Assembly (NCBI GenBank): GCA_027307335.1
Contig: DAHUXD010000036.1
Coordinates: forward strand, 62,001-126,000
From: Acidobacteriota bacterium
Lineage (GTDB): Bacteria; Acidobacteriota; Thermoanaerobaculia; UBA5066; Gp7-AA6
Direction of reading: 5' to 3'
Length of the DNA stretch: 64,000 bases
Shown here: positions 40,199-54,384 of the stretch, one piece after another
Layout: the number at the start of each line of letters is the position of its first letter
Numbering within the stretch: position 1 is the first letter of the stretch
Made by a program: the position numbers and the translations under genes
The notes under the pieces: model-generated
Database searches by the model: none
Told to the model about the DNA's origin: nothing
What the model saw: the letters and a program-made list of their open reading frames with translations, nothing else

Positions 40199-41646
40199 CT
40201 AGCGGCCGAGCACGCAGCTCTTCAGCACCTCGAGGAAGGGCTGCGGCACGACGCCGATGACGAGGGTCCCCACGGCGCAGACCGCGATCACCGCCGACAG
40301 CGCGTACGAGCTCTTCAGCTTCGCCGGCGACCCCTCGGTGAAGAACATCGCCGCCGCGATCCGGAAGTAGTAGAAGAGCGAGACGGCCGACATCACGACG
40401 GCGAGAATCGCCAGCCAGGCATAGCCCGCCTTCATCGCCGCCGTGAACAGGTAGTACTTGCCGATGAAGCCCGCGGTCGGCGGAATGCCCGCGAGGGAGA
40501 GCAGGAAGAGGAGCATCACGACGGCCGCCGGCATGCTGCGCTTCGCGAGGCCGTTGAAGTCCGAGACCGACTCCCCCGCATAGCCCTTGCTCTCGAGCAG
40601 GATGATCAGCGTGAACGCGCCGAAGTTCATGAACGTGTAGGCGAGGAGGTAGATCAGGATGCCCCACAGTCCCCACTCGGTGCGGAACCCGAGCACGCCG
40701 AGGAGCGCGTAGCCGGCGTTTGCGATCGAGGAGTAGGCGAGCATCCGCTTGACGTTGGACTGCAGGAGCGCCGCGACGTTGCCGAGGACCATCGTCGCCG
40801 CCGAGACCAGGGCCACGACGAAGCCCCAGTCCGCGTGGAACTTCGCGAACGCCACGTAGAAGATCCGCGCGAGGATCGCGTAGGCCGCCACCTTGGGACC
40901 GACGGAGAAGAACGCGGTCACCGGCGTCGGCGAACCCTCGTAGACGTCGGGCGTCCAGACGTGGAACGGCACCGCCGCGATCTTGAACAGCAGCCCGGCG
41001 AGGATCAGCAGGATGCCGAGCATCAGCAGGTTCGACCGCGACGCGGAGGCCAGCAGCTTCGCGAGCTCCGGCAGCCCCATCACACCGCCGGCGCCGTAGA
41101 CGAGCGACAGCCCGTACAGCAGCACGCCCGAGGAGAACGCGCCGAGGATGAAGTACTTCAGCGCGGCCTCCGTCGACTTCGGCTCGGCCTTGAAGTATCC
41201 GGCCAGGACGTACGACGAGAGCGCCATCAGCTCGAGCGCGACGTAGATCGAGATCAAGTTGTTGCCGGACGCCATGAACAGCATGCCGACGCCCGAGAAG
41301 AGGAGCAGCGCGTAGTACTCCCCTCCCGGGTAGGGCGCCGCGCCGACGTACCGGGCGGACGCGAGGACCGTCAGCGCGAGCGAGAGCAGCACGAGCGCCT
41401 TGAAGAACAGGGCGAAGTTGTCCACGACGAAGGCGCCGCCGAGGATCGGCGTCGCCCGCTCGGGCCGCGTCGCGACGAACGCGACGAGCGCGCCGGTGAT
41501 GCCGACCGACACGGTAGCCAGGAACGCGAGGAAGTCCTCCTTCGTCTTGCCCAGGGCCACGGAGAGGCCGAGCAGGAGGAGGCCCATGGCCGTGAGGAAC
41601 AGCTCCGGCGCGAGCAGGAGCCAGTCCGAGGCGTGGAACGCGAACG

Positions 41647-41650
<4 letters not shown>
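40199..41650 (-). CDS. nuoN: NADH-quinone oxidoreductase subunit N
   Basis: The protein has 483 residues with about 14 membrane helices. Antiporter-like features: ISIYVALELMALSSY with the conserved Glu of helix 5, VPFHVWTPDVYEGSPTPVTAF, KRMLAYSSIANAGY and LAGIPPTAGFIGKYY. It is one of three proton-pumping antiporter-like subunits of complex I. The ATG overlaps the nuoM stop (ATGA). It is the last gene of the nuo operon. Confidence 0.97.
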
Positions 41651-43257
<1,607 letters not shown>

Positions 43258-43287
43258 CGGGTCCTCATAGCTTCGTTCTCGACGGCC

Positions 43288-45474
43288 TCACCGGAAGAGC
43301 AGGTAGACGGCAACCAGGCAGAAGAGTCCTCCACCCATGACGAGCGCGTAGTTCTGGACCCTTCCGGTCTGCGCGCGCCGGAAGAGCTGGAAGAGCGACT
43401 GGAGCGCGTACGCGACGCCGTTGACGAGGCCGTCCACGACGTACTGGTCGAACGCCGCCGCCATCCAGGAGGCGCCGCGCGTCACCGCGGCGGCGCCGTT
43501 CGGGATCAGGTCGACGACGGTCGCGTCGACCTCCCATAGGAAACGGCCGCCGTCGAGCGCGAGCCCTCGGACGAAGACCTTCTCGTAGGCCTCGTCCACG
43601 AAGTACTTGTGCGCAACCGCCCGGTAGACGCCCGGCCACTCGGCCGCGAGGCGGGCCGGCGTGCGCCCCTCCCCCTTCGAATACCAGGACCACGCGAGGT
43701 AGATGCCGATCGACGCGACGGCCACCGCCGCCGCCATCAGCCCGAGCTCGATGGAGAGCGGGGCGTGGTGCACGCGCTCCGGCATCCCGGCGATGGGCAG
43801 GCGGATCGGCCGGAGAAACTCGCCGATGCGGTCGCCGTGCTCGATGATCGGCACGCCGACGTAGCCGGAGACGATCGAGAGGAACGCGAGAACGATGAGC
43901 GGAATCGTCATCGTCGCCGGCGACTCGTGGACGTGGTGCTCCTGCTCCTTCGTGCCGCGGAAGTGCCCCCAGAAGGTCAGCGTCAGGAGCCGGAACATGT
44001 AGAACGCGGTCAGCCCCGCGGTGAAGAGCGCGACGGCGTACAGCAGCTTCGGGAGCCACGGCACCGCCTGGAACTCCGCGTGGAAGACGGCCGCCTTGAT
44101 CGCGTCCTTCGAGAAGAACGCCGCCAGGAACGGCACCCCCGAGATCGTCAGCGTCGCGATCAGGAACGTGCGGTAGGTCCTCGGGATCTTCCCGGCGAGG
44201 CCGCCCATGCGCCGGATGTCCTGCTCGCCGCCCATGGCGTGGATGACCGAGCCGGCCCCGAGGAACAGGCAGGCCTTGAAGAAGGCGTGGGTCGTGACGT
44301 GGAACATGCCTTCGGCGAAGGCGCCGACGCCGCACGCGAGGAACATGTAGCCGAGCTGGGAGACCGTCGAGTACGCCAGGACCTTCTTGATGTCGTTCTG
44401 CGCCACCCCGATCGTCGCGGCGAAGAGCGCCGTGAACGCGCCGACGATCGCCACGACGATCATCGCGTTCGGTGCCAGGCGGAAGAAGACGTTGCAGCGC
44501 GCGATCATGTACACGCCGGCGGTGACCATCGTCGCCGCGTGGATCAGGGCCGAGACCGGAGTGGGTCCCGCCATCGCGTCCGGCAGCCAGACGTAGAGGG
44601 GGAACTGCGCCGACTTGCCGCAGGCGCCGACGAAGAGGAGGAGGCAGATCACGGTCATGTACGGCGTGTAGGCGGCCGGGTTGGCCGCGGCCGCCGCGAA
44701 GACCTTCTGGAAGTCGAGCGAGCCGAAGAGCCCGAAGACGCCGAAGATGCCGAGGATGAACCCGAAGTCCCCGATGCGATTGACGACGAACGCCTTCTTG
44801 CCCGCGTCGGCGGCGTAGTTTTTCTCGTAGTAGTAGCCGATGAGGAGATACGAGCAGAGGCCGACCCCCTCCCAGCCGACGAACAGCAGCAGGAAGTTGC
44901 CGCCGAGGACGAGAACCAGCATCGCGAACATGAAGAGGTTCAGGTAGGCGAAGAAGCGGCCGAATCCCTCCTCGTGGCCCATGTAGCCCACCGAGTAGAG
45001 GTGGATCAGCGAGCCGACGAAGGTCACGAACGCGAGCATCAGCGCCGAGAGCGAGTCGATCCGGAGCGTCACGTCGACGAACCACTCGCCGGCCGAGCCG
45101 GGGATCTGTCCGACGGCCTGGTTGACCGCGAGCGGAATCCAGCGCCAGAGCGTGATCGAGTGCGAGGCGCCCTCGGAGAACGCCTTCAGCCCGATGTCGA
45201 AGATCGCGCCGAACGCGAGGACGCACGCGATCACCACGCTGCCGACCCCGACGACCGTGTGGAGGCCCTTGAAGGGGATCTCGTGGTGCCCCGGATCGTG
45301 TCCGGTGTCGTGCGCCGTATCGGGCGCGGTCGCGGCCGTGTGGGCATCGGTCCCGTAGCCGCCGCCGTGGCCGTGCGTTTCCCCCTTCGTGCGGTGCGAG
45401 AGGAGGTACACGAGCCCGTTGATCAGGAACCCGATCAGCGGGAACAGCGGGATCGCCCAGAGGAGGTTTCTCAA
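43288..45474 (-). CDS. nuoL: NADH-quinone oxidoreductase subunit L with His-rich loop
   Basis: The protein has 728 residues. Motifs include LFVGWEGVGLCSYLLIG, FPLYVWLPDAMAGPTPVSALIHAATM, KKVLAYSTVSQLGYMFLA and GVPFLAAFFSKDAI. It contains the long lateral helix typical of NuoL. Between helices 1 and 2 it has an inserted hydrophilic loop (about 27-72) with at least nine His residues mixed with Gly, Asp and Thr. Such a loop is not usual and may bind metal at the membrane surface. Five bases separate it from nuoK. Confidence 0.96.
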   Translation of the reverse strand: MRNLLWAIPLFPLIGFLINGLVYLLSHRTKGETHGHGGGYGTDAHTAATAPDTAHDTGHDPGHHEIPFKGLHTVVGVGSVVIACVLAFGAIFDIGLKAFSEGASHSITLWRWIPLAVNQAVGQIPGSAGEWFVDVTLRIDSLSALMLAFVTFVGSLIHLYSVGYMGHEEGFGRFFAYLNLFMFAMLVLVLGGNFLLLFVGWEGVGLCSYLLIGYYYEKNYAADAGKKAFVVNRIGDFGFILGIFGVFGLFGSLDFQKVFAAAAANPAAYTPYMTVICLLLFVGACGKSAQFPLYVWLPDAMAGPTPVSALIHAATMVTAGVYMIARCNVFFRLAPNAMIVVAIVGAFTALFAATIGVAQNDIKKVLAYSTVSQLGYMFLACGVGAFAEGMFHVTTHAFFKACLFLGAGSVIHAMGGEQDIRRMGGLAGKIPRTYRTFLIATLTISGVPFLAAFFSKDAIKAAVFHAEFQAVPWLPKLLYAVALFTAGLTAFYMFRLLTLTFWGHFRGTKEQEHHVHESPATMTIPLIVLAFLSIVSGYVGVPIIEHGDRIGEFLRPIRLPIAGMPERVHHAPLSIELGLMAAAVAVASIGIYLAWSWYSKGEGRTPARLAAEWPGVYRAVAHKYFVDEAYEKVFVRGLALDGGRFLWEVDATVVDLIPNGAAAVTRGASWMAAAFDQYVVDGLVNGVAYALQSLFQLFRRAQTGRVQNYALVMGGGLFCLVAVYLLFR

Positions 45475-45478
45475 CCGG

Positions 45479-45784
45479 CTAGCCCTGCATCGTGTGCGCT
45501 TCTTCGACGTCGAGCGTCTTCTTCTGGCGGAAGAAGGAGATCGTCAGCGCGAGGCCGATCGCCGCCTCGCCGGCCGCGATCGTGATCACGAAGATGGAGA
45601 AGACCTGCCCCGTCAGGTCGGACAGGCGGCGCGAGAACGCGATCAGGTTCAGGTTGACCGCGTTCAGCATCAGCTCGATCGACATCAGGATCGTCAGGAA
45701 GTTGCGCCTCACGAGAACGCCGAGGAACCCGATCGAGAAGAGCAGGAAACTGACGATCAGGTAATGGTTGATGGTGATGGTCAT
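45479..45784 (-). CDS. nuoK: NADH-quinone oxidoreductase subunit K
   Basis: The protein has 101 residues with three helices, normal for NuoK. LIVSFLLFSIGFLGVLVRRN, MSIELMLNAVNLNLIAF (conserved Glu within helix 2) and AAGEAAIGLALTISFF (second Glu) are intact. It is separated from nuoJ by 85 bases that hold a palindromic repeat. Confidence 0.97.
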   Translation of the reverse strand: MTITINHYLIVSFLLFSIGFLGVLVRRNFLTILMSIELMLNAVNLNLIAFSRRLSDLTGQVFSIFVITIAAGEAAIGLALTISFFRQKKTLDVEEAHTMQG

Positions 45785-45810
45785 GCAGAACGCCCATATG
45801 GGGAAACGCC

Positions 45811-45850
45811 GCCCCTCTCCCCCCGGGAGAGGGGGTGGGGGTGAGGGGCG
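45811..45850 (+). repeat. Dispersed palindromic repeat, copy D (within nuo operon)
   Basis: Starts GCCCCTCTCCCCCCGGGAGA and ends GGGGGTGAGGGGCG. It lies between nuoJ and nuoK; the only spaces this long within the operon carry such elements. It may act as an RNA stability or attenuation element. Confidence 0.85.
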
Positions 45851-45869
45851 TCCAAGAGCCGCACTCTCA

Positions 45870-46424
45870 TCAGTCCATCTTCTCGAGCGACCGCTTCCCC
45901 AGAACGACGGCGCCGATCATCGCCACGAGCAGGAAGACCGAGGCGACCTCGAACGGCACCAGGTAATCGCGGAAGAGCACCCACGACACGGCCTCGGTGT
46001 TGCCGACCACCCGCGTGCCGACCATGCGGAACGCCTCCGCCTTGACCGGAACGTCCGGCAGCTTCTCGGTGCCCAGGATGTACAGGAACGGCAGCAGGAA
46101 GATCGGGAGCAGCACGACCGCGACGTCCCACTGGTGCTGGAACGACTTCTCCGAGCGCGTCACGCCCGGATTGACCAGCATGACGACGAAGAGGAAGAGC
46201 ACCATGATCCCGCCGGCGTAGACCAGCATCTGCACCGCGCCGACGAACTCCGCCTGCTGGAGGATGAAGATCGCCGCGACGAGCACGAAGGAGAGGAGCA
46301 GAAACAGCGCCGAGTGCACGGGGCTCCTCGCCACGACGACGGCGATCGCCGACGCGAGCGCCACCGCCGCGAGGACGGCGAAGAGGACACCCGCCCCCCC
46401 GGTCAGCAGCACGCCGTCCGACAC
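45870..46424 (-). CDS. nuoJ: NADH-quinone oxidoreductase subunit J
   Basis: The protein has 184 residues with five membrane helices: VLFAVLAAVALASAIAVVVA, SALFLLLSFVLVAAIFILQQ, EFVGAVQMLVYAGGIMVLFL (the pi-bulge helix), a fourth at about 105-120 and FEVASVFLLVAMIGAVVLG. The GTG start lies six bases after the nuoI stop. Confidence 0.95.
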   Translation of the reverse strand: MSDGVLLTGGAGVLFAVLAAVALASAIAVVVARSPVHSALFLLLSFVLVAAIFILQQAEFVGAVQMLVYAGGIMVLFLFVVMLVNPGVTRSEKSFQHQWDVAVVLLPIFLLPFLYILGTEKLPDVPVKAEAFRMVGTRVVGNTEAVSWVLFRDYLVPFEVASVFLLVAMIGAVVLGKRSLEKMD

Positions 46425-46429
46425 GCTGC

Positions 46430-46912
46430 CTACCCCCGCTCCACGACGGTGAACGGCTTGACGTTCGGCGCCTCGCGCCAGTCGGTGAGCTTGCGGATGT
46501 CGAGGTAGAGCGACTCGTTCCGGTCGTACGCGGCCATCTCGTACGTCTTCGTCGTCAGCCAGATCGATTTCGGCACCGTCGGGCACGCCTCCTCGCACAG
46601 CTGGCAGAACATGCACCGCTTCAGGTCCACGTCGAAACGGTCGAGGACCTTCACCGACTTGTTCTGCTCGTCCTTCTCGTTGTGCCAGTCGATGTAGATG
46701 ATGTTGATCGGGCACTCGATCGCGCAGAGCGTGCACTTGATGCAGCGTTCCTCGTCGAGGCGGAACATGCCGCGGAAGCGGTCCGACGGCAGCTTCTTCT
46801 GCTCGGGGTACTCGATCGTCACCTTCTTCTTCAGGAGGTGGCGTCCCGTGACCGACAGGCCGTCGAACAGATCGAGCAGCGTGATGCGGTCGAGCCACTT
46901 CTTCAGCGCCAC
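46430..46912 (-). CDS. nuoI: NADH-quinone oxidoreductase subunit I (2x[4Fe-4S])
   Basis: The protein has 160 residues with two ferredoxin motifs: CIKCTLCAIECPINII and CMFCQLCEEACPTVP. These bind clusters N6a and N6b which pass electrons to NuoB. The N-terminal part has a membrane-facing amphipathic helix (LDLFDGLSVTGRHLLKKK). Its stop lies six bases before nuoJ. Confidence 0.96.
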   Translation of the reverse strand: MALKKWLDRITLLDLFDGLSVTGRHLLKKKVTIEYPEQKKLPSDRFRGMFRLDEERCIKCTLCAIECPINIIYIDWHNEKDEQNKSVKVLDRFDVDLKRCMFCQLCEEACPTVPKSIWLTTKTYEMAAYDRNESLYLDIRKLTDWREAPNVKPFTVVERG

Positions 46913-46916
46913 GGCG

Positions 46917-48080
46917 TCACCCCTCCACCGGGTGCGGCTCGGCCGCGAGGCGCTCGCGCCGGGCGAGCTTCTGACGGAGCTTCGCGGCGAGATAGGCGAG
47001 GACGAAGAGAACGCCGAGCGTCCAGCCGAGCCAGACGAGGCCCGTGGTCCACCCCGGGGTCAGCAGAATCGCGAACGCGACGAGCAGGATGTTCGTGAGC
47101 GCCAGGGGGATCAGCCACTTCCAGCCGAGCGCCATGAGCTGGTCGAACCGGTAGCGCGGGAAGGTCGAGCGGAACCAGATGTACGCGAACAGGAAGGCGG
47201 CGACCTTCGCGAGGAACCACAGCGCCGGCGGCACCTGCCAGAGGAACTCGAGCGCCTTGACGTTCGGGAAGGGCGGCAGCCAGCCGCCGAAGAAGACGGT
47301 GACCGCGACGCACGAGATGATGATCATCGCGGTGTACTCGCCGAGAAAGAAGAAGGCGAACTTCACGCCCGAGTACTCGGTGTTGAAGCCCGAGACCAGC
47401 TCCGACTCCGCCTCCGGCAGGTCGAACGGGTTTCGGTTCGTCTCGGCGACGCCCGCGACGAAGTAGATGAAGAACGCGAGCAGCCCGGGAAAGACGAACC
47501 ACAGGTGCATCGCCTCCTGCCGGCGGACGCTCTGCACGAGCGAGAGCGAGCGCGTCATCAGGAGCACGGACACGAGCGCGAGGCCCATCGGGACCTCGTA
47601 GGAGACGAGCTGGGCCGCGGAGCGGAGCCCGCCGAGGAGCGAGTACTTGTTGTTCGAGGACCAGCCGCCCAGGATGATCCCGTACACGCCGATCGAGGTG
47701 ATCGCGAGCAGGAACAGCAGGCCGATGTTCACGTCGGCCACCCACAGGGGAACCACCGTGCGCCCGACCCGCACCGGCGGACCGAAGGGAATGACGGAGA
47801 GGGCCGTCAGCGCCGGAATGACCGCGAGGACGGGCGCGAGCGAGTGCACCGCCTTCTCGGCGCGGGAGGGCGTGATGTCCTCCTTCGTGACGAGCTTCAG
47901 CAGGTCGGCGAGGCCCTGAAGCGTTCCCTGCGGCCCGACGCGATTCGGCCCGAGGCGCGCCTGCATGAAGCCCATGAGCCGCCGCTCGGCGAGCACGACG
48001 ACGAACCCGACGATCGCCGGCACGAGCGCGACGAGCAGGACGACCTTGAGATAGGTCCAGAAGGCCGGCGGGAGGGTCAC
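46917..48080 (-). CDS. nuoH: NADH-quinone oxidoreductase subunit H
   Basis: The protein has 387 residues with eight membrane helices. Quinone-site elements: ERRLMGFMQARLGPNRVGP, GLADLLKLVTKEDITP, AETNRNPFDLPEAESELVSGF, EYSGVKFAFFFLGEY and RSTFPRYRFDQLM. The GTG start overlaps the nuoD stop (GTGA). It forms the quinone pocket with NuoB and NuoD. Confidence 0.97.
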   Translation of the reverse strand: MTLPPAFWTYLKVVLLVALVPAIVGFVVVLAERRLMGFMQARLGPNRVGPQGTLQGLADLLKLVTKEDITPSRAEKAVHSLAPVLAVIPALTALSVIPFGPPVRVGRTVVPLWVADVNIGLLFLLAITSIGVYGIILGGWSSNNKYSLLGGLRSAAQLVSYEVPMGLALVSVLLMTRSLSLVQSVRRQEAMHLWFVFPGLLAFFIYFVAGVAETNRNPFDLPEAESELVSGFNTEYSGVKFAFFFLGEYTAMIIISCVAVTVFFGGWLPPFPNVKALEFLWQVPPALWFLAKVAAFLFAYIWFRSTFPRYRFDQLMALGWKWLIPLALTNILLVAFAILLTPGWTTGLVWLGWTLGVLFVLAYLAAKLRQKLARRERLAAEPHPVEG

Positions 48081-49294
48081 CGGTCCACCTCCCCCAGCAC
48101 GATGTCGATCGTGCCGATGAGGGCCACGAGGTCGGACACGAGGTGCCCCTTCGCGAGCCGAGGCAGCGCCTGGAGGTTGATGAACGAGGGCGGCCGCACG
48201 TGCATCCGGTACGGCTTGTTCGAGCCGTTCGAGACGCAGTAGAAGCCGAGCTCGCCCTTCGGCGACTCGACGGAGGCATAGACCTCTTCCGCGACGGGCT
48301 TGATGACCCGCGGCACCTTGCCCCTGATCTCGCCCGGCTCGAGCCGCTCGAGGCACTGCCGGACGATCCGGACGCTCTGCCGCATCTCCTGGACGCGAAC
48401 GATGTACCGGTCGTAGGTGTCCCCGTTCTGCCGCGTCGGGACGACGAAGTCGAGCTCCTCGTAGCACTCGTACGGCTGCGCGCGTCGCAGGTCCCACTCG
48501 ACGCCGGAAGCGCGGATCACCGGGCCGGTCAGGCCCCACTCGATGCATTCCTCGCCCGAGATCACGCCGATGCCGACCGTCCGCTTCTTCCAGATGCGGT
48601 TGTCGGTCAGGAGCTGCTCGTACTCGTCGATCCGCGCCGGCAGGTCGTCGACGAACTCGGCGACCCGCTCGGTCCAGCCCGGCGTCAGGTCGAACGGCAG
48701 CCCGCCGATGCGCATGCAGTTGAGAGTCAGGCGCGCGCCGCAGTACTCCTCGAAGAAGTCGAGGATCTGCTCGCGCTCGCGGAACGCGTACCAGAAGGGC
48801 GTCACCGCGCCGAGGTCGATGCCGGACGTGCCGAGCCACACCAGGTGCGACGAGAGCCGCTGCAGCTCGTCGAGGATCACGCGGATGAGCTGCGCGCGCC
48901 GCGGCACCTCGACGGCGAGGAGCTTCTCGATCGTCAGGCAGTAGGCGTGGTTGTTCGTCGCCGCCGCCACGTAGTCCATGCGGTCCGTGTGGGGCACGCC
49001 CATGGGGTACGTCTCGGTCTCGAAGAGCTTCTCGGTGCCGCGATGGAGATACCCGACGTCCGGCTTCGCCTCCAGGATCTTCTCGCCGTCGACCTTCAGG
49101 ACGATCCGCAGCACGCCGTGCGTCGAGGGGTGCTGTGGGCCGAAGTTCAGCTCCATCTCCTGGACGTCGAAGAGCGTCGGAGGGGTCCCGGTCACGGCGG
49201 AGGCTTCGGCCGCGCGGGCGGCCGCCGCCTTCGCCCGCTCGGCGAAGTAGGCGGCCTCGTCCTTCTCGGCCTGCGAGATCTTGTCGTCAGACAT
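48077..49294 (-). CDS. nuoD: NADH-quinone oxidoreductase subunit D
   Basis: The protein has 405 residues. After a non-conserved, Ala/Glu-rich N-terminus of about 40 residues come MELNFGPQHPSTHGVLRIV, DVGYLHRGTEKLFE, DRMDYVAAATNNHAY and GSNKPYRMHVRPPSF. This subunit carries the quinone-binding His/Tyr pair. The Arg in HGVLRIV corresponds to the region of NDUFS2 that is dimethylated by NDUFAF7 in mitochondria; a relative of that enzyme is encoded next to this operon. The ATG at 49294 lies behind a palindromic repeat. Confidence 0.97.
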   Translation of the reverse strand: MSDDKISQAEKDEAAYFAERAKAAAARAAEASAVTGTPPTLFDVQEMELNFGPQHPSTHGVLRIVLKVDGEKILEAKPDVGYLHRGTEKLFETETYPMGVPHTDRMDYVAAATNNHAYCLTIEKLLAVEVPRRAQLIRVILDELQRLSSHLVWLGTSGIDLGAVTPFWYAFREREQILDFFEEYCGARLTLNCMRIGGLPFDLTPGWTERVAEFVDDLPARIDEYEQLLTDNRIWKKRTVGIGVISGEECIEWGLTGPVIRASGVEWDLRRAQPYECYEELDFVVPTRQNGDTYDRYIVRVQEMRQSVRIVRQCLERLEPGEIRGKVPRVIKPVAEEVYASVESPKGELGFYCVSNGSNKPYRMHVRPPSFINLQALPRLAKGHLVSDLVALIGTIDIVLGEVDR

Positions 49295-49330
49295 AGTGCC
49301 TGCCGCGGCGCGCAGCGCCGCCTCCAACTC

Positions 49331-49369
49331 CTCCCTCTCCCTCCGGGAGAGGGCCGGGGTGAGGGGCGT
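49331..49369 (+). repeat. Dispersed palindromic repeat, copy E (within nuo operon)
   Basis: Starts CTCCCTCTCCCTCCGGGAGA and ends GGGGTGAGGGGCGTG. It fills most of the 93-base gap between nuoC and nuoD. Copies C and E are the most alike. Confidence 0.85.
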
Positions 49370-49387
49370 GACTCAGCCAACCGCACT

Positions 49388-49981
49388 TCACGACACCACC
49401 TTGCGGTTCGGGTCTTTCCCGGACGGGCCGCCGCCCTCGGGCCATTCCTCGGGGTAGATCGCCGCGCCGGTGTCGATGCCCTCGAGCGGAAAGTCCTTGC
49501 GCAGCGGATGGCCCTTGAAGCCCTCCCAGGTCAGGATCCGCCGCAGGTCGGGGTGGCCCGAGAACGAGATCCCGAACATGTCCCAGGTCTCCCGCTCGCA
49601 CCAGTTCGCGGCGAGGAAAACCGAAGCGATCGATGGGACCTCCTCGCCGTCCGCGGCCGCGCACTTGACCCGGATGCGCGCGTTCTTCGAGAACGAGTAG
49701 AAGTGATAGACGACGTCGAAGCGCGGGACGCGCGTCTTCCAGTCGACCGCGGTCACGTCGACGCAGTACCGGAAGTCCTCCGCGTCCTTCAGGTGCCGCG
49801 CGACGCGCGCGATCGAGTCCTTCTGGACGACGACCGTGATCTGACCGGCGAACGACTTCGCGGACACCACCGTGTCGGGCAGCGCCGCGCGGAGGGACTC
49901 GACCCAGGGATGGCCCGAGGCGTCGGTGGCCTCGGGCCGGGCCTTCTTCTCCTCGGCGGGAGACTTCTCCACGTCCGCCAA
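49388..49981 (-). CDS. nuoC: NADH-quinone oxidoreductase subunit C
   Basis: The protein has 197 residues. The family core is present: [59 protein letters not shown]. An acidic N-terminal extension of about 25 residues is not conserved. The start is a TTG immediately after the nuoB stop (TGA TTG); a GTG four codons later is an alternative. It is a peripheral-arm scaffold. Confidence 0.95.
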
Positions 49982-50467
49982 TCAGGACGCCTTGCGGATG
50001 ACCTTCATCCGGTCGATCTTCTTCTGGAGCGCCATGATCCCGTAGATGAGCGCCTCGGGCCGCGGCGGGCAGCCGGGCACGTAGACGTCCACGGGCACGA
50101 TCCGGTCGACGCCCTGCGTCACGGCGTAGGTCTTGTAGGGACCGCCGCACGTCGCGCACGAGCCCATCGCGATCACCCACTTGGGTTCCGGCATCTGGTC
50201 GTAGAGGCGCTTGACGATCGGCGCCATCTTCTCGACGACGGTGCCGGCGACGATCATCAGGTCCGACTGCCGCGGCGTGCCCCGGAAGACCTCCGCGCCG
50301 AAGCGCGACAGATCGTGCCGGGCGTCCATCACCGCCATCATCTCGATCGCGCAGCAGGCGAGGCCGAACTGCATCGGCCAGATCGAGGAGCGCCGCGCCC
50401 AGTTGATGACCGAGTCGACGGTCGTCGTGAGCACGTTGTCCCCGAAGCGGTTGTCGACCAGGCCCAT
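49982..50467 (-). CDS. nuoB: NADH-quinone oxidoreductase subunit B
   Basis: The protein has 161 residues and holds cluster N2: the tandem Cys pair in [12 protein letters not shown], then [10 protein letters not shown] and [14 protein letters not shown]. It is the last cluster before quinone. The ATG is preceded by a good GGGGGAG site. It lies 14 bases after nuoA. Confidence 0.98.
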
Positions 50468-50481
50468 CCGTCTCCCCCGTC

Positions 50482-50838
50482 CTAGGCCCAGTCCAGGGCC
50501 TTGCGCTTCCAGCAGTAGAAGTACCCCACGACGAGGATGGCCAGGAAGACCAGCATCTCGGCGAGTCCGAAGAGCCCGAGCCGGTGGAACATGACCGCCC
50601 ACGGGAAGAGGAAGATCGTCTCCACGTCGAAGACCACGAAGAGGACGGCGATCAGGAAGTACCGCACCGAGAAGCGCGTGTCGAAGGCCGAGGTCGTCGC
50701 CTCGACGCCGCACTCGTAGGGCTCGAGCTTGGCCGCGTTCGGCCGGCGCGTCTGGACGGCCCGCGCGATGACGATCGTCCCGATCGGCAGAGCCGCAGCC
50801 AGAACGGCGAACACCAGAATGGGAAGGTACTGGCCCAC
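50482..50838 (-). CDS. nuoA: NADH-quinone oxidoreductase subunit A
   Basis: The protein has 118 residues with three helices. Motifs: [16 protein letters not shown] (with the conserved Cys loop) and [20 protein letters not shown]. It starts the operon nuoABCDHIJKLMN. The GTG follows a TAGAAT box by 9 bases and there is no clear Shine-Dalgarno site, so the entire complex I transcript probably begins within 3 bases of the start. Confidence 0.96.
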
Positions 50839-50883: not shown

Positions 50884-51004
50884 GCGGGAGAACGCCGCAT
50901 CGGAAGCGGGGCCGGCGAAGCCGGGCCCGGTTCCGAGAAAAGAACGTCGCGGGAGAACGCCGCATCGGAAGCGGGGCCGGCGAAGCCGGGCCCGGTTCCG
51001 AGAA
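50884..51004. repeat. Tandem 65-bp repeat with strong hairpins
   Basis: A 56-base unit occurs twice (50884-50939 and 50949-51004), with period 65. Each unit has GGGAGAACGCCGC followed by a long GC hairpin, CGGAAGCGGGGCCGGC paired with GCCGGGCCCGGTTCCG. The duplication fills the space between nuoA and the 3' end of the methyltransferase gene. The GAGAACGCCGC core also occurs in the double hairpin at 35650. This could terminate the methyltransferase transcript before nuo. Confidence 0.8.
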
Positions 51005-51037
51005 GATGACGTCGGACGGCGGCGCGTTCGACTTTTT

Positions 51038-52096
51038 TCACTCCCGCGCCGGCCCGCGCGGCCCCTTGCGCTGCACGAGCACCGAGATCTGCTCGCCCAT
51101 CCCCTCCGGATCGAGGAGGCGGAAGACGCGCCACTTCTCCGCGTCGCTCTCGACGAAGTCGAGGATGCCGATCTCGGAGAGGAACATTCCCTGCCGCGTG
51201 AGGCGATCGGCGGCGAGCCCCTGCTCCTCGCCGGCGGCGAGGAGGACGTCCCAGTCGACGTGGGCGGTTAAGTCGACCTCGCCCGGGCGCTCGAGGGGGT
51301 CGCCGCCGCGGCGGCCGCCCCGATGGACCGCGAGCGTCCCGTGGGGCCGCGCGAACGGGTGGTAAAGGATGCGGGCCGGGTGCCCGTAGTCGAAGGTCAC
51401 GATCGAGCCCCGCTCGAGCGCGCCCGCCAGCCGGCGGTGCAGGGGCGCCGCGTCGGGGGCGATCTCGCCCTTCTGGCCCGGCGCGAGCGAGATCCCGAGG
51501 CGCGCGAGGTGCTCGCGCCACTCCTCGGCCGCGGGCGCCGCCGTCCAGACGAAGCCGCTCGGACCCGCGCCGACGCGCAGCTCGTTCAGCCCCTCCTCGG
51601 ATCCCTCCACGCGGACGACCGGCAGCGCGTCGTAGAGCTCGTTCGAAAAGATCCAGCCGCGCACGGAGCCCGGGGCGAGCCCTTCGGCCTTCTCGAGGAC
51701 ACGCGGGGCCGGCTCGATCGACCGCGCCGCCAGCCGGCGCCGCGCCGCCTCCGACGCCTCGATCGCGGTCACCCGCAGCCGCCCGTGCAGCTCCGGGGCG
51801 AGCCGCGCCAGCGCGAACGTGAAGTCCTCGAGGAAGCGGCCCTCGCCGGCGCCGACCTCCACCAGGTCGACGTCGCCCTCGAGCTCCTGCGCCTCGATCG
51901 CGAAGAGGCGCGCGAGCGCCGCGCCGAAGGCGGCCGAGACGTGCGGCGACGTCAGGAAGTCGCCGCCCTCGCCGATCGCCGCTCCCCGCGCGTAGTACCC
52001 CTCCTCCGGATCGTAGAGCGCGGCCCGCATGAACTCGTAGAAGGAGATCGGCCCCTCGCCGGAAATCCGGCCGCGCAGGCGTTCCGACAGTGACAC
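51038..52096 (-). CDS. MidA/NDUFAF7-like SAM-dependent methyltransferase
   Basis: The protein has 352 residues from a GTG that lies 10 bases after a perfect TATAAT. It begins SLSERLRGRISGEGPISFYEFM and contains YDPEEGYYARGAAIGEGGDF, SAAFGAALARLF, the SAM loop VEVGAGEGRF, IFSNELYDALPVVRV and TFDYGHPARI, all diagnostic of the MidA/NDUFAF7 family (PF02636). In mitochondria NDUFAF7 symmetrically dimethylates an Arg of the NuoD homologue NDUFS2 and is needed for complex I assembly. Its place directly upstream of the nuo operon, on the same strand, suggests the same job here. That role is inference. Confidence 0.9.
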   Translation of the reverse strand: MSLSERLRGRISGEGPISFYEFMRAALYDPEEGYYARGAAIGEGGDFLTSPHVSAAFGAALARLFAIEAQELEGDVDLVEVGAGEGRFLEDFTFALARLAPELHGRLRVTAIEASEAARRRLAARSIEPAPRVLEKAEGLAPGSVRGWIFSNELYDALPVVRVEGSEEGLNELRVGAGPSGFVWTAAPAAEEWREHLARLGISLAPGQKGEIAPDAAPLHRRLAGALERGSIVTFDYGHPARILYHPFARPHGTLAVHRGGRRGGDPLERPGEVDLTAHVDWDVLLAAGEEQGLAADRLTRQGMFLSEIGILDFVESDAEKWRVFRLLDPEGMGEQISVLVQRKGPRGPARE

Positions 52097-52106
52097 GCGG
52101 GCGCGG

Positions 52107-52112
52107 ATTATA
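52107..52112 (-). promoter_or_regulatory. -10 element TATAAT for the methyltransferase
   Basis: A perfect consensus TATAAT, then CCGCGCCCGC (10 bases), then GTG. It overlaps the -10 box of the divergent lipoprotein gene by four bases, so the two promoters share one melting region. Confidence 0.6.
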
Positions 52113-52122: not shown

Positions 52123-54384
52123 ATGCGGCGCCGCGCGCTCCTTCTCTCGGGTTCGGCGGCCGCCCTTCTCGCTCTCGTCCCACTCGCGGCGGCCTGCGCC
52201 TCGAGGAAGGACGAGAGGCTCCCGACGCTGGCGGACTATTCGGATGGGACGTCCGTCTGGGCCGACGACCTCCTCGCCGGCTGGAAGGCGGGCGAGATCC
52301 CGGCCGCGCTCTTCGCGTCGCCGGCCGCGTGGAGCGGCCCGCTGCCGGGCGAGGGCCTGCGGAGGGTCCCGGCGCGTCCGCCGCTCTCGGTCGAAATCTA
52401 CGAGGCCGCCGCCACGGCGGGGTCCGCCGCCGCGTCCGCGCCGGCCGACGTCCGGGGGGCGCTCCGCGCGGTCCGCTCCCGGTTCGCGGCGCTCGGCCGC
52501 TCGGAGGCGACGATCCTCGACTTCCGGCGGCACGGCGAAGAGCGCGTGATCCTCCTCGGCCTCTTCCTCGGCGGACGCGGGAAGGGCGGCGAGCTCCGCC
52601 AGGAGGCCGGGCGGCTCCGGCTGACCCTCGGCCCGGCGGACGCGGGCCGCTGGCGCCTCGAGGAGGGATCCGTCGAGGGCTGGCTCTCCGCGAGCGCGGG
52701 CGAGCCTCTCTTCGAGGAGCGCGCCGCCGCGGCGGGCCTCGGCGAACCGCACCGCGCGTTCAAGGCGAACGCGGCGCGCAACATCCCGGTCCCCGGCGAG
52801 CACCTGCCTCCCGGCGCGGCCGTGCTCGACTTCGACGGCGACGGGCGCGAGGACATCTTCGTCGCCGGCGGTCACGGCAACCACCTCTACCGGAACCGCG
52901 GCGACGGCACGTTCGAGGACGTCGCCGTGCGGGCGGGCGTGCGGGGCCAGGAGGGGGAAGCCGTGGGCGCGCTCGCGTTCGACTACGACGGCGACGGGCG
53001 GCCGGACCTCTACGTCACCTACCTCGAGCGCCCGAATCTCCTCTTCCACAACCGCGGCGACGGCACGTTCGAGGAGGTGGGGGCGAAGGCCGGCGTGGCG
53101 CTGTCGGAGTACTGCACGTCGGCCGCCGCGCTCGACTACGACCGCGACGGCCGGCCCGACCTCTACGTGCTCGTGTACGGGCATCCGGACTACGGACCGA
53201 ACATGGCGGCGGACAACGCCCCTCCGAACCACCTCTTTCACAACAACGGCGACGGCACGTTTACGGATGTCACGCAGAGCTCCGGCACCGGCGACACGGG
53301 CTGGGGGCTCGCGGTCGAGTGCGCGGACCTCGACGGCGACGGCTGGCCCGACATCTACATCGCCAACGACTTCGGCAACCACGTTTACCTGCACAACAAC
53401 GCGAACGGGACCTTCACGAACGCCGCCCGGGCCTCCCAGATCCTCGACCCCGGCTTCGGCATGGGCGTCGCGATCGACGACTACGACGGCGACGGGCGGC
53501 TCGACCTCTTCGTCTCGAACTATTCGTTCCCGCTGAACTGGTTTCTCAAGGACCCGCGCTACCCCATGCCGCCCTTCCCCTACTCGATGGGGCGTCCGAT
53601 CGTGTGGCGGAAGCTGAAGTCGCTCTCCCGCGGCTCCTCGCTCTTCCGGAACGTCGGCGGCAACCGCTTCGAGCGCACGTCGACCGAGGCGGGCGTCGGG
53701 GACACGTCCTGGTCGTGGGGCTGCGTCTTCGTCGATGCCGACATGGACGGCCGCCCGGACCTCTTCGTCGTCAACGGCATGGTCACGGGCAAGAACGACG
53801 TCGAGCGCGAGATCGAGTTCTGGGCGCTGATGTCGATCGAGTTCGAGAAGTTCCAGAAGGGCATTCCGGTCGCCGAGTTCGGCGACGACTCGCTCTGGGG
53901 CCGGCCGCCGAAGCGCTTCTACCGCAACCGCGACGGCGCGCACTTCGACGAGCTCGCCGCGGTCGCCGGCCTCGAGTCGAACGCGAACCAGCGCGGCCTC
54001 GTTGTCCTCGACGTGGACGGCGACGGCGCGCCGGACCTCTTCGCGACCGGGTTCCTCCAGCCGCCCGCGCTCTGGGTCAACCGCAACCCGTCGCACGCGA
54101 AGGCGCTCGCCGTCGCGCTCGAGGGCGACCCGTCGCTGCCCGGCCCGCACCGCTCGACCCGCGACGCGCTCGGCGCGACCGTGACGGTCGAAGCGAACGG
54201 CCTCTCGCGCACGCAGGTCGTCGCGGCCGGCTACTCCTTCCTCTCGTCGGGCGCGAAGGAGCTCTTCTATGGCCTCGGCTCGGCGGAGAGGGCCGACCGC
54301 GTCGTCGTGCGCTGGCCCTCGGGCCGCGTCACCGAGCGGCGCGGGGTGCCCGCGGGACGGCTCGCGCTGCGCGAGGCGCCGTAG
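52123..54384 (+). CDS. CRTAC1/ASPIC-UnbV family lipoprotein with FG-GAP repeats
   Basis: The protein has 753 residues. Signal with a lipobox-like site and Cys25 (VPLAAAC). From about residue 210 come at least six FG-GAP/VCBS repeats, each with a calcium-type loop such as DFDGDGREDIF, DYDGDGRPDLY, DLDGDGWPDIY and DADMDGRPDLF, building a beta-propeller. The last about 90 residues form the ASPIC/UnbV domain (VRWPSGRVTERRGVPAG). These large surface proteins are common in Acidobacteriota; function unknown, perhaps in binding or extracellular calcium-dependent adhesion. A Gly/Ala-rich helical region of about 180 residues precedes the propeller. Confidence 0.9.
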   Translation: MRRRALLLSGSAAALLALVPLAAACASRKDERLPTLADYSDGTSVWADDLLAGWKAGEIPAALFASPAAWSGPLPGEGLRRVPARPPLSVEIYEAAATAGSAAASAPADVRGALRAVRSRFAALGRSEATILDFRRHGEERVILLGLFLGGRGKGGELRQEAGRLRLTLGPADAGRWRLEEGSVEGWLSASAGEPLFEERAAAAGLGEPHRAFKANAARNIPVPGEHLPPGAAVLDFDGDGREDIFVAGGHGNHLYRNRGDGTFEDVAVRAGVRGQEGEAVGALAFDYDGDGRPDLYVTYLERPNLLFHNRGDGTFEEVGAKAGVALSEYCTSAAALDYDRDGRPDLYVLVYGHPDYGPNMAADNAPPNHLFHNNGDGTFTDVTQSSGTGDTGWGLAVECADLDGDGWPDIYIANDFGNHVYLHNNANGTFTNAARASQILDPGFGMGVAIDDYDGDGRLDLFVSNYSFPLNWFLKDPRYPMPPFPYSMGRPIVWRKLKSLSRGSSLFRNVGGNRFERTSTEAGVGDTSWSWGCVFVDADMDGRPDLFVVNGMVTGKNDVEREIEFWALMSIEFEKFQKGIPVAEFGDDSLWGRPPKRFYRNRDGAHFDELAAVAGLESNANQRGLVVLDVDGDGAPDLFATGFLQPPALWVNRNPSHAKALAVALEGDPSLPGPHRSTRDALGATVTVEANGLSRTQVVAAGYSFLSSGAKELFYGLGSAERADRVVVRWPSGRVTERRGVPAGRLALREAP

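Follow-up and report, generated by a model that had tools for sequence, protein, structure and literature searches.

The gene that lies immediately upstream of nuoA in the 64,000-nucleotide stretch of acidobacterial DNA analysed here (hereafter the window) probably encodes a bacterial MidA/NDUFAF7 arginine methyltransferase, which would dimethylate Arg96 of NuoD and thereby aid the assembly of the complex I encoded just downstream. In the mechanism that we propose, MidA would use S-adenosylmethionine to dimethylate this arginine, placed in the HRGTEK motif beside the iron-sulphur cluster N2, and would do so on new NuoD, before or during the joining of the NuoB-NuoD quinone module. Here, we establish the family and the fold of the protein and the order of the genes, and we show that the target residue is present and that the enzyme covaries with it.

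Table 1. Features of the midA-nuo region, in window coordinates.
Feature	Position	Strand	Evidence and remarks
nuoN, start approximate	40199..41641	(-)	TIGR01770 E 3.4e-132
nuoM	41647..43257	(-)	TIGR01972 E 3.5e-189
nuoL	43288..45474	(-)	PF00361/PF00662
nuoK	45479..45784	(-)	PF00420 E 5.9e-32
nuoJ, start approximate	45870..46403	(-)	PF00499 E 2.9e-39
nuoI	46430..46912	(-)	NCBIfam NuoI E 3.8e-36
nuoH, start approximate	46917..48080	(-)	PF00146 E 1.6e-120
nuoD, NDUFS2 homologue	48077..49327	(-)	PF00346 E 5.2e-105
Codon of NuoD R96 (GYLHR*GTEK), predicted methylation site	49040..49042	(-)	translation compared with the peptide of PMC3750175
nuoC	49388..49981	(-)	PF00329 E 9.4e-47
nuoB, subunit carrying cluster N2	49982..50467	(-)	PF01058 E 5.1e-29, within a longer ORF
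nuoA	50482..50838	(-)	PF00507 E 3.8e-36
Tandem pair of 65-bp repeats (95% similar) bearing terminator-like hairpins	50884..51013	.	midA-nuoA gap
midA, MidA/NDUFAF7-family SAM-dependent methyltransferase	51038..52096	(-)	352 aa, GTG start; PF02636 E 1.6e-39
TATAAT hexamer, possible -10 element	52107..52112	(-)	read from the sequence; 10 nt upstream of the midA start

The original prediction placed a MidA/NDUFAF7 gene just upstream of nuoA on the same strand, and the PF02636 match, the fold and the 199-bp gap between the two genes bear this out. Indeed, in a profile search the product scores 136.3 bits against PF02636 (Methyltransf_28/COG1565), the curated cut-off being 23.3, and midA is the sole PF02636 gene that such a search found in the source genome. 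An AlphaFold2 model built from 38 related sequences (pLDDT 95.6, pTM 0.93) matches 4g67/4f3n, 1zkd and the Dictyostelium MidA structure 5zu0, with TMq values of 0.79-0.86 in a structure search. The best six matches all belong to COG1565/MidA, and their 364-392 aligned columns indicate a full-length MidA-like methyltransferase fold; unrelated methyltransferases come next, at a TM of about 0.45 or less. The SAM motif GxGxG and the NExxDALP, DYG and PGxxDLTAHV motifs are retained in the window MidA and across the 162 relatives of our alignment. Column 261 is a glycine in the window protein and a histidine in 148 of the 162 relatives; this histidine is near-invariant and common in the family, not a residue known to define it, and 13 other relatives, several of them nuo-linked, are also without it. 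When membership of the Type II PRMTs (PRMT5-like) was considered, no PRMT profile match was found, PF02636 being the sole Pfam match of the window MidA. A promoter scan gave no full sigma-70 match for midA, the TATAAT hexamer having no -35 match. On the other side of midA, a gene for an FG-GAP/UnbV_ASPIC protein with a lipoprotein-like start (52123-54384) is divergently oriented, with 26 bp between the two start codons.

Downstream, midA heads a same-strand cluster of 11 genes, nuoABCDHIJKLMN. No nuoE, nuoF or nuoG was found between nuoD and nuoH, nor elsewhere in the nuo cluster (40199-50838), and the NuoF-family genes of the source genome are carried by other contigs (C23 and C44). The cluster may encode an 11-subunit complex, or one joined by separately encoded subunits. 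As tandem repeats with terminator-like hairpins take up much of the midA-nuoA gap, co-transcription of midA and the nuo genes is, on sequence grounds, plausible at most; no further copy of the 65-bp repeat lies within the window. Similar reading-frame remnants, APHPGPLPEGEG and APHPHPLSRGERG, are found in the nuoC-nuoD gap (49327-49388) and in the nuoJ-nuoK gap (about 45781-45870), and their likeness suggests that a dispersed repeat has entered the cluster at two places. The nuo cluster is followed, in the same orientation, by a gene for an ATP synthase a chain (PF00119, 38742-39554).

Which residue would MidA modify? The arginine of NDUFS2 that NDUFAF7 modifies in human cells (PMC3829151) is found as symmetric dimethyl-arginine in cattle, humans, Pichia pastoris and Paracoccus denitrificans, the modified peptide being KCDPHIGLLHR*GTEK and the arginine being Arg-85 in the bovine and Arg-65 in the Paracoccus protein (PMC3750175). 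Cryo-EM density for the dimethyl-arginine has been observed in Paracoccus complex I too (PMC11522691). The equivalent arginine is unmodified in E. coli, and Thermus has a threonine instead (PMC3750175). In Yarrowia, the same arginine lies 3.7 A from cluster N2 and is required for N2 stability (PMC8042128). The window NuoD reads AKPDVGYLHR*GTEK, so that the target arginine and the HRGxEK motif of the partner subunit are both retained, R96 being the homologue of bovine NDUFS2 Arg-85 and of Paracoccus Nqo4 Arg-65. The claim that NuoD keeps the surroundings of the target was therefore right as regards the arginine (R96, in HRGTEK) and wrong as regards the peptide that had been named, FGPQHPSTHGVLR, which the published peptide (PMC3750175) rules out as the methylated one, R96 lying 22 residues past the last arginine of FGPQHPSTHGVLR. 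Loss of the target arginine from linked NuoD proteins, which would have spoken against the original prediction, was not seen: the arginine is present both here and in the other nuo-linked copies that we read. Among the NuoD proteins sampled across genomes, the site occurs as Arg-Gly, Arg-Ala, Arg-Ser, Arg-Cys, Arg-Asn, Thr-Gly and Ser-Gly. A paralogue group with Arg-Asn (HRNHE or HRNHD, e.g. L316, L319, L320, L389-L393) was read only in MidA-less genomes, and the source genome itself has a second nuoB-C-D-I set (L108, G000 contig C62), the NuoD of which carries HRCFEK (Arg-Cys) at the target site.

The position of midA beside nuo genes is recurrent. Our sample of 149 Acidobacteriota contains 73 genomes with a PF02636 match, 66 of which were taken as having a clear MidA, and 137 with a PF00346 gene; midA is found in none of the 12 genomes without a PF00346 gene. 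Neighbourhoods were read in 61 of the 66, that is, in all except five genomes of one genus, and midA adjoins nuo genes in 18 of the 66 midA-bearing genomes, spanning 11 families. In 5 genomes, all of the class to which the window belongs, the cluster begins with midA-nuoA-B; 13 further ones have the order [nuoI-]nuoB-midA or nuoA-nuoB-midA. In G018 (L051, L111), the main nuo cluster has no visible nuoB or nuoI, and a nuoI-nuoB pair adjoins midA elsewhere. The contig scan of named genomes, for which we used a 5-row MidA alignment because the 38-row one was too divergent, revealed the order midA-nuoA-B-C in nine Chloroflexota loci. In this phylum midA also stands divergent, convergent or downstream relative to nuo genes, and among the positions listed for the Chloroflexota sample at least 12 of the 66 midA genomes, a lower bound, have midA and nuoD no more than about 6 kb apart, in several orientations. 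The cyanobacterial phylum contributes 8 midA loci with nuo or ndh genes within about 1.5 kb. Arrangements met in this phylum are midA-nuoA-nuoB and midA close to ndhH, and the scan of named genomes gave midA-ndhH in a cyanobacterial MAG. The proteobacterial and Paenibacillus midA loci that we sampled showed no nuo linkage and have unrelated neighbours. Over the 141 midA neighbourhoods taken together, nuoB is the commonest neighbouring family (26 loci), the other recurrent neighbours being mainly confined to single lineages. The synteny that had been proposed as a check is thus recurrent in three phyla, yet it is a minority arrangement. Roughly three quarters of the sampled midA genes lie elsewhere, and the notion that midA always adjoins nuo is rejected.

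Could the midA-nuoA adjacency of the source genome be a matter of chance, or of ordinary housekeeping synteny? The unrelated genes that adjoin midA in the sampled Proteobacteria and in Paenibacillus would agree with such a reading, but linkage in 18 of 66 Acidobacteriota and in at least 12 of 66 Chloroflexota, in several orders, has to be set against a random expectation that we estimate at about one at most. The survey refutes chance placement beside nuoA, and we regard this reading as a whole as extremely improbable.

The presence of MidA also covaries with the residue that it is predicted to modify. A genome was scored as positive if it encodes a NuoD with Arg-Gly that shares 40% or more identity with the window NuoD. 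In Acidobacteriota, Arg-Gly is found in 54 of 55 genomes with MidA versus 14 of 40 without (Fisher 3e-12); when counted by family, the numbers with and without Arg-Gly are 34/1 where MidA is present versus 7/13 where it is absent (p 6e-7). Scoring any arginine weakens the contrast, which still holds (54/1 with MidA versus 28/12 without, p 9e-5). In Chloroflexota, 22 of 24 genomes with MidA have Arg-Gly (and all 24 the arginine) versus 6 of 24 without (Fisher 5e-6). Since these comparisons drew on best-matching NuoD copies, a second copy may have been overlooked in some genomes. As a test against shared ancestry, we let a NuoD tree with the target site masked stand in for the relationships of the genomes. 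In 10 phylogenetically independent supported pairs that differ in the arginine, MidA agrees in about 8.5 on average and goes the opposite way in none (median p 0.004). Here the arginine was counted when followed by G, A or S, a rule that was loosened from Arg-Gly after proteobacterial sequences were seen. A strict need for Arg-Gly is rejected: MidA-bearing gammaproteobacteria show both HRA and HRG, and HRS occurs in two Chloroflexota. The arginine is common in genomes without MidA (23 genomes, plus E. coli, where it is unmodified) and hence does not depend on MidA. In G005, MidA is present, yet a NuoD with threonine is the only one found.

The covariation may in part reflect the whole complex I subtype. 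Inside a single NuoD subtype it fell short of significance for want of independent pairs, so that residue and subtype are incompletely separated. This would suit a model in which MidA is an assembly factor of the NuoB-NuoD module, acting chiefly as a chaperone or methylating another residue or subunit, the correlation with Arg96 being a by-product of subtype; the linkage of midA to nuoB and nuoA, which is as strong as that to nuoD, also speaks for such a factor. Nevertheless, arginine and MidA coincide even in genomes whose sole complex I belongs to the inserted type (14 with arginine and MidA, 21 with neither, 3 exceptions), and it is precisely this arginine that NDUFAF7 modifies in human cells. 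We consider this model unlikely. Less credible still is a main action of bacterial MidA on some other substrate, such as DNA, with regulatory or historical reasons for the nuo adjacency. It is true that adenine and cytosine methylation was obtained with Wolbachia MidA expressed in E. coli (PMC12455994) and that the majority of midA genes are away from nuo. However, action on another substrate would predict neither the repeated, separately arranged nuo linkage in three phyla, nor the absence of midA from PF00346-less Acidobacteriota, nor the covariation with a NuoD residue.

Most simply, bacterial MidA would methylate the target arginine of NuoD, in the manner of NDUFAF7 in human cells; the kind of reaction, whether it is symmetric, when it takes place and what it does to N2 would be as known from mitochondria and Paracoccus. 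MidA is mostly present together with an arginine-bearing complex I and nearly always absent otherwise, a distribution which points to a shared and probably ancient job. The suggestion, originally drawn from linkage in this one locus, that bacterial MidA proteins share the role of NDUFAF7 gains support from the recurrent synteny and from the covariation with the arginine. We lean, if only slightly, towards the broader proposal that MidA throughout bacteria would be a dedicated partner of the arginine-bearing complex I, many lineages either keeping arginine and MidA or replacing the arginine (Thr, Arg-Asn, Arg-Cys) and dropping MidA, and that this pair would be far older than mitochondria and extend beyond Proteobacteria.

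A bacterial role of MidA, as suggested in the original prediction, had been put forward before: it was proposed for proteobacterial MidA in 2018 (Shahul Hameed et al. 2018, in the form in which PMC9006661 cites it), and dimethylation of Paracoccus NuoD is known (PMC3750175). The function of prokaryotic MidA has so far been inferred in silico only (PMC12455994), and dimethyl-arginine in bacteria is reported for one species only (PMC11522691). As far as we could find, what is new is the recurrent midA-nuo linkage in three non-proteobacterial phyla, including the nuoB-midA form, together with the covariation of enzyme and target; our search of the open-licence literature found no earlier report of cross-phylum linkage or of covariation. 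Within its family the window MidA is unremarkable, and it is its location that is informative; the hypothesis now has better support and lends itself readily to testing. Because gene order in three phyla and matched variation of enzyme and target concur, there is a testable reason to expect the methyl-arginine far beyond alphaproteobacteria. Genomes with the arginine and MidA, with the arginine and no MidA, and with threonine and no MidA form natural comparison groups for the effects of the methyl groups on N2 and on assembly.

How does the window MidA compare with known systems? By sequence and by fold, its nearest structures are 4f3n/4g67 from Burkholderia thailandensis and 1zkd from Rhodopseudomonas palustris, COG1565/DUF185 proteins deposited as uncharacterised or likely methyltransferases with no substrate stated. 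In E. coli, the equivalent arginine is Arg-249 of NuoCD, which is unmodified (PMC3750175), and, unlike in the source genome, a profile search found no PF02636 gene in the E. coli control genome. Paracoccus denitrificans has in NuoD (Nqo4) both the same arginine and the mark, seen by mass spectrometry and cryo-EM (PMC3750175, PMC11522691); we found no experimental proof of the methylating enzyme of Paracoccus in the open-licence literature. It is an alphaproteobacterium, and in contrast to the window, nuo linkage was not seen in the sampled proteobacterial midA loci. With human NDUFAF7 and Dictyostelium MidA (PDB 5ztz, 5zu0, 5zzw) the window protein has its family and fold in common (TMq 0.83, profile E 6.7e-59). 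It is about 21% identical to Dictyostelium MidA and, unlike it, adjoins the operon of its predicted substrate and is without the histidine of column 261, its activity being predicted. In the human and Dictyostelium system the target arginine of HRGTEK is conserved in the partner subunit, as it is in the window NuoD.
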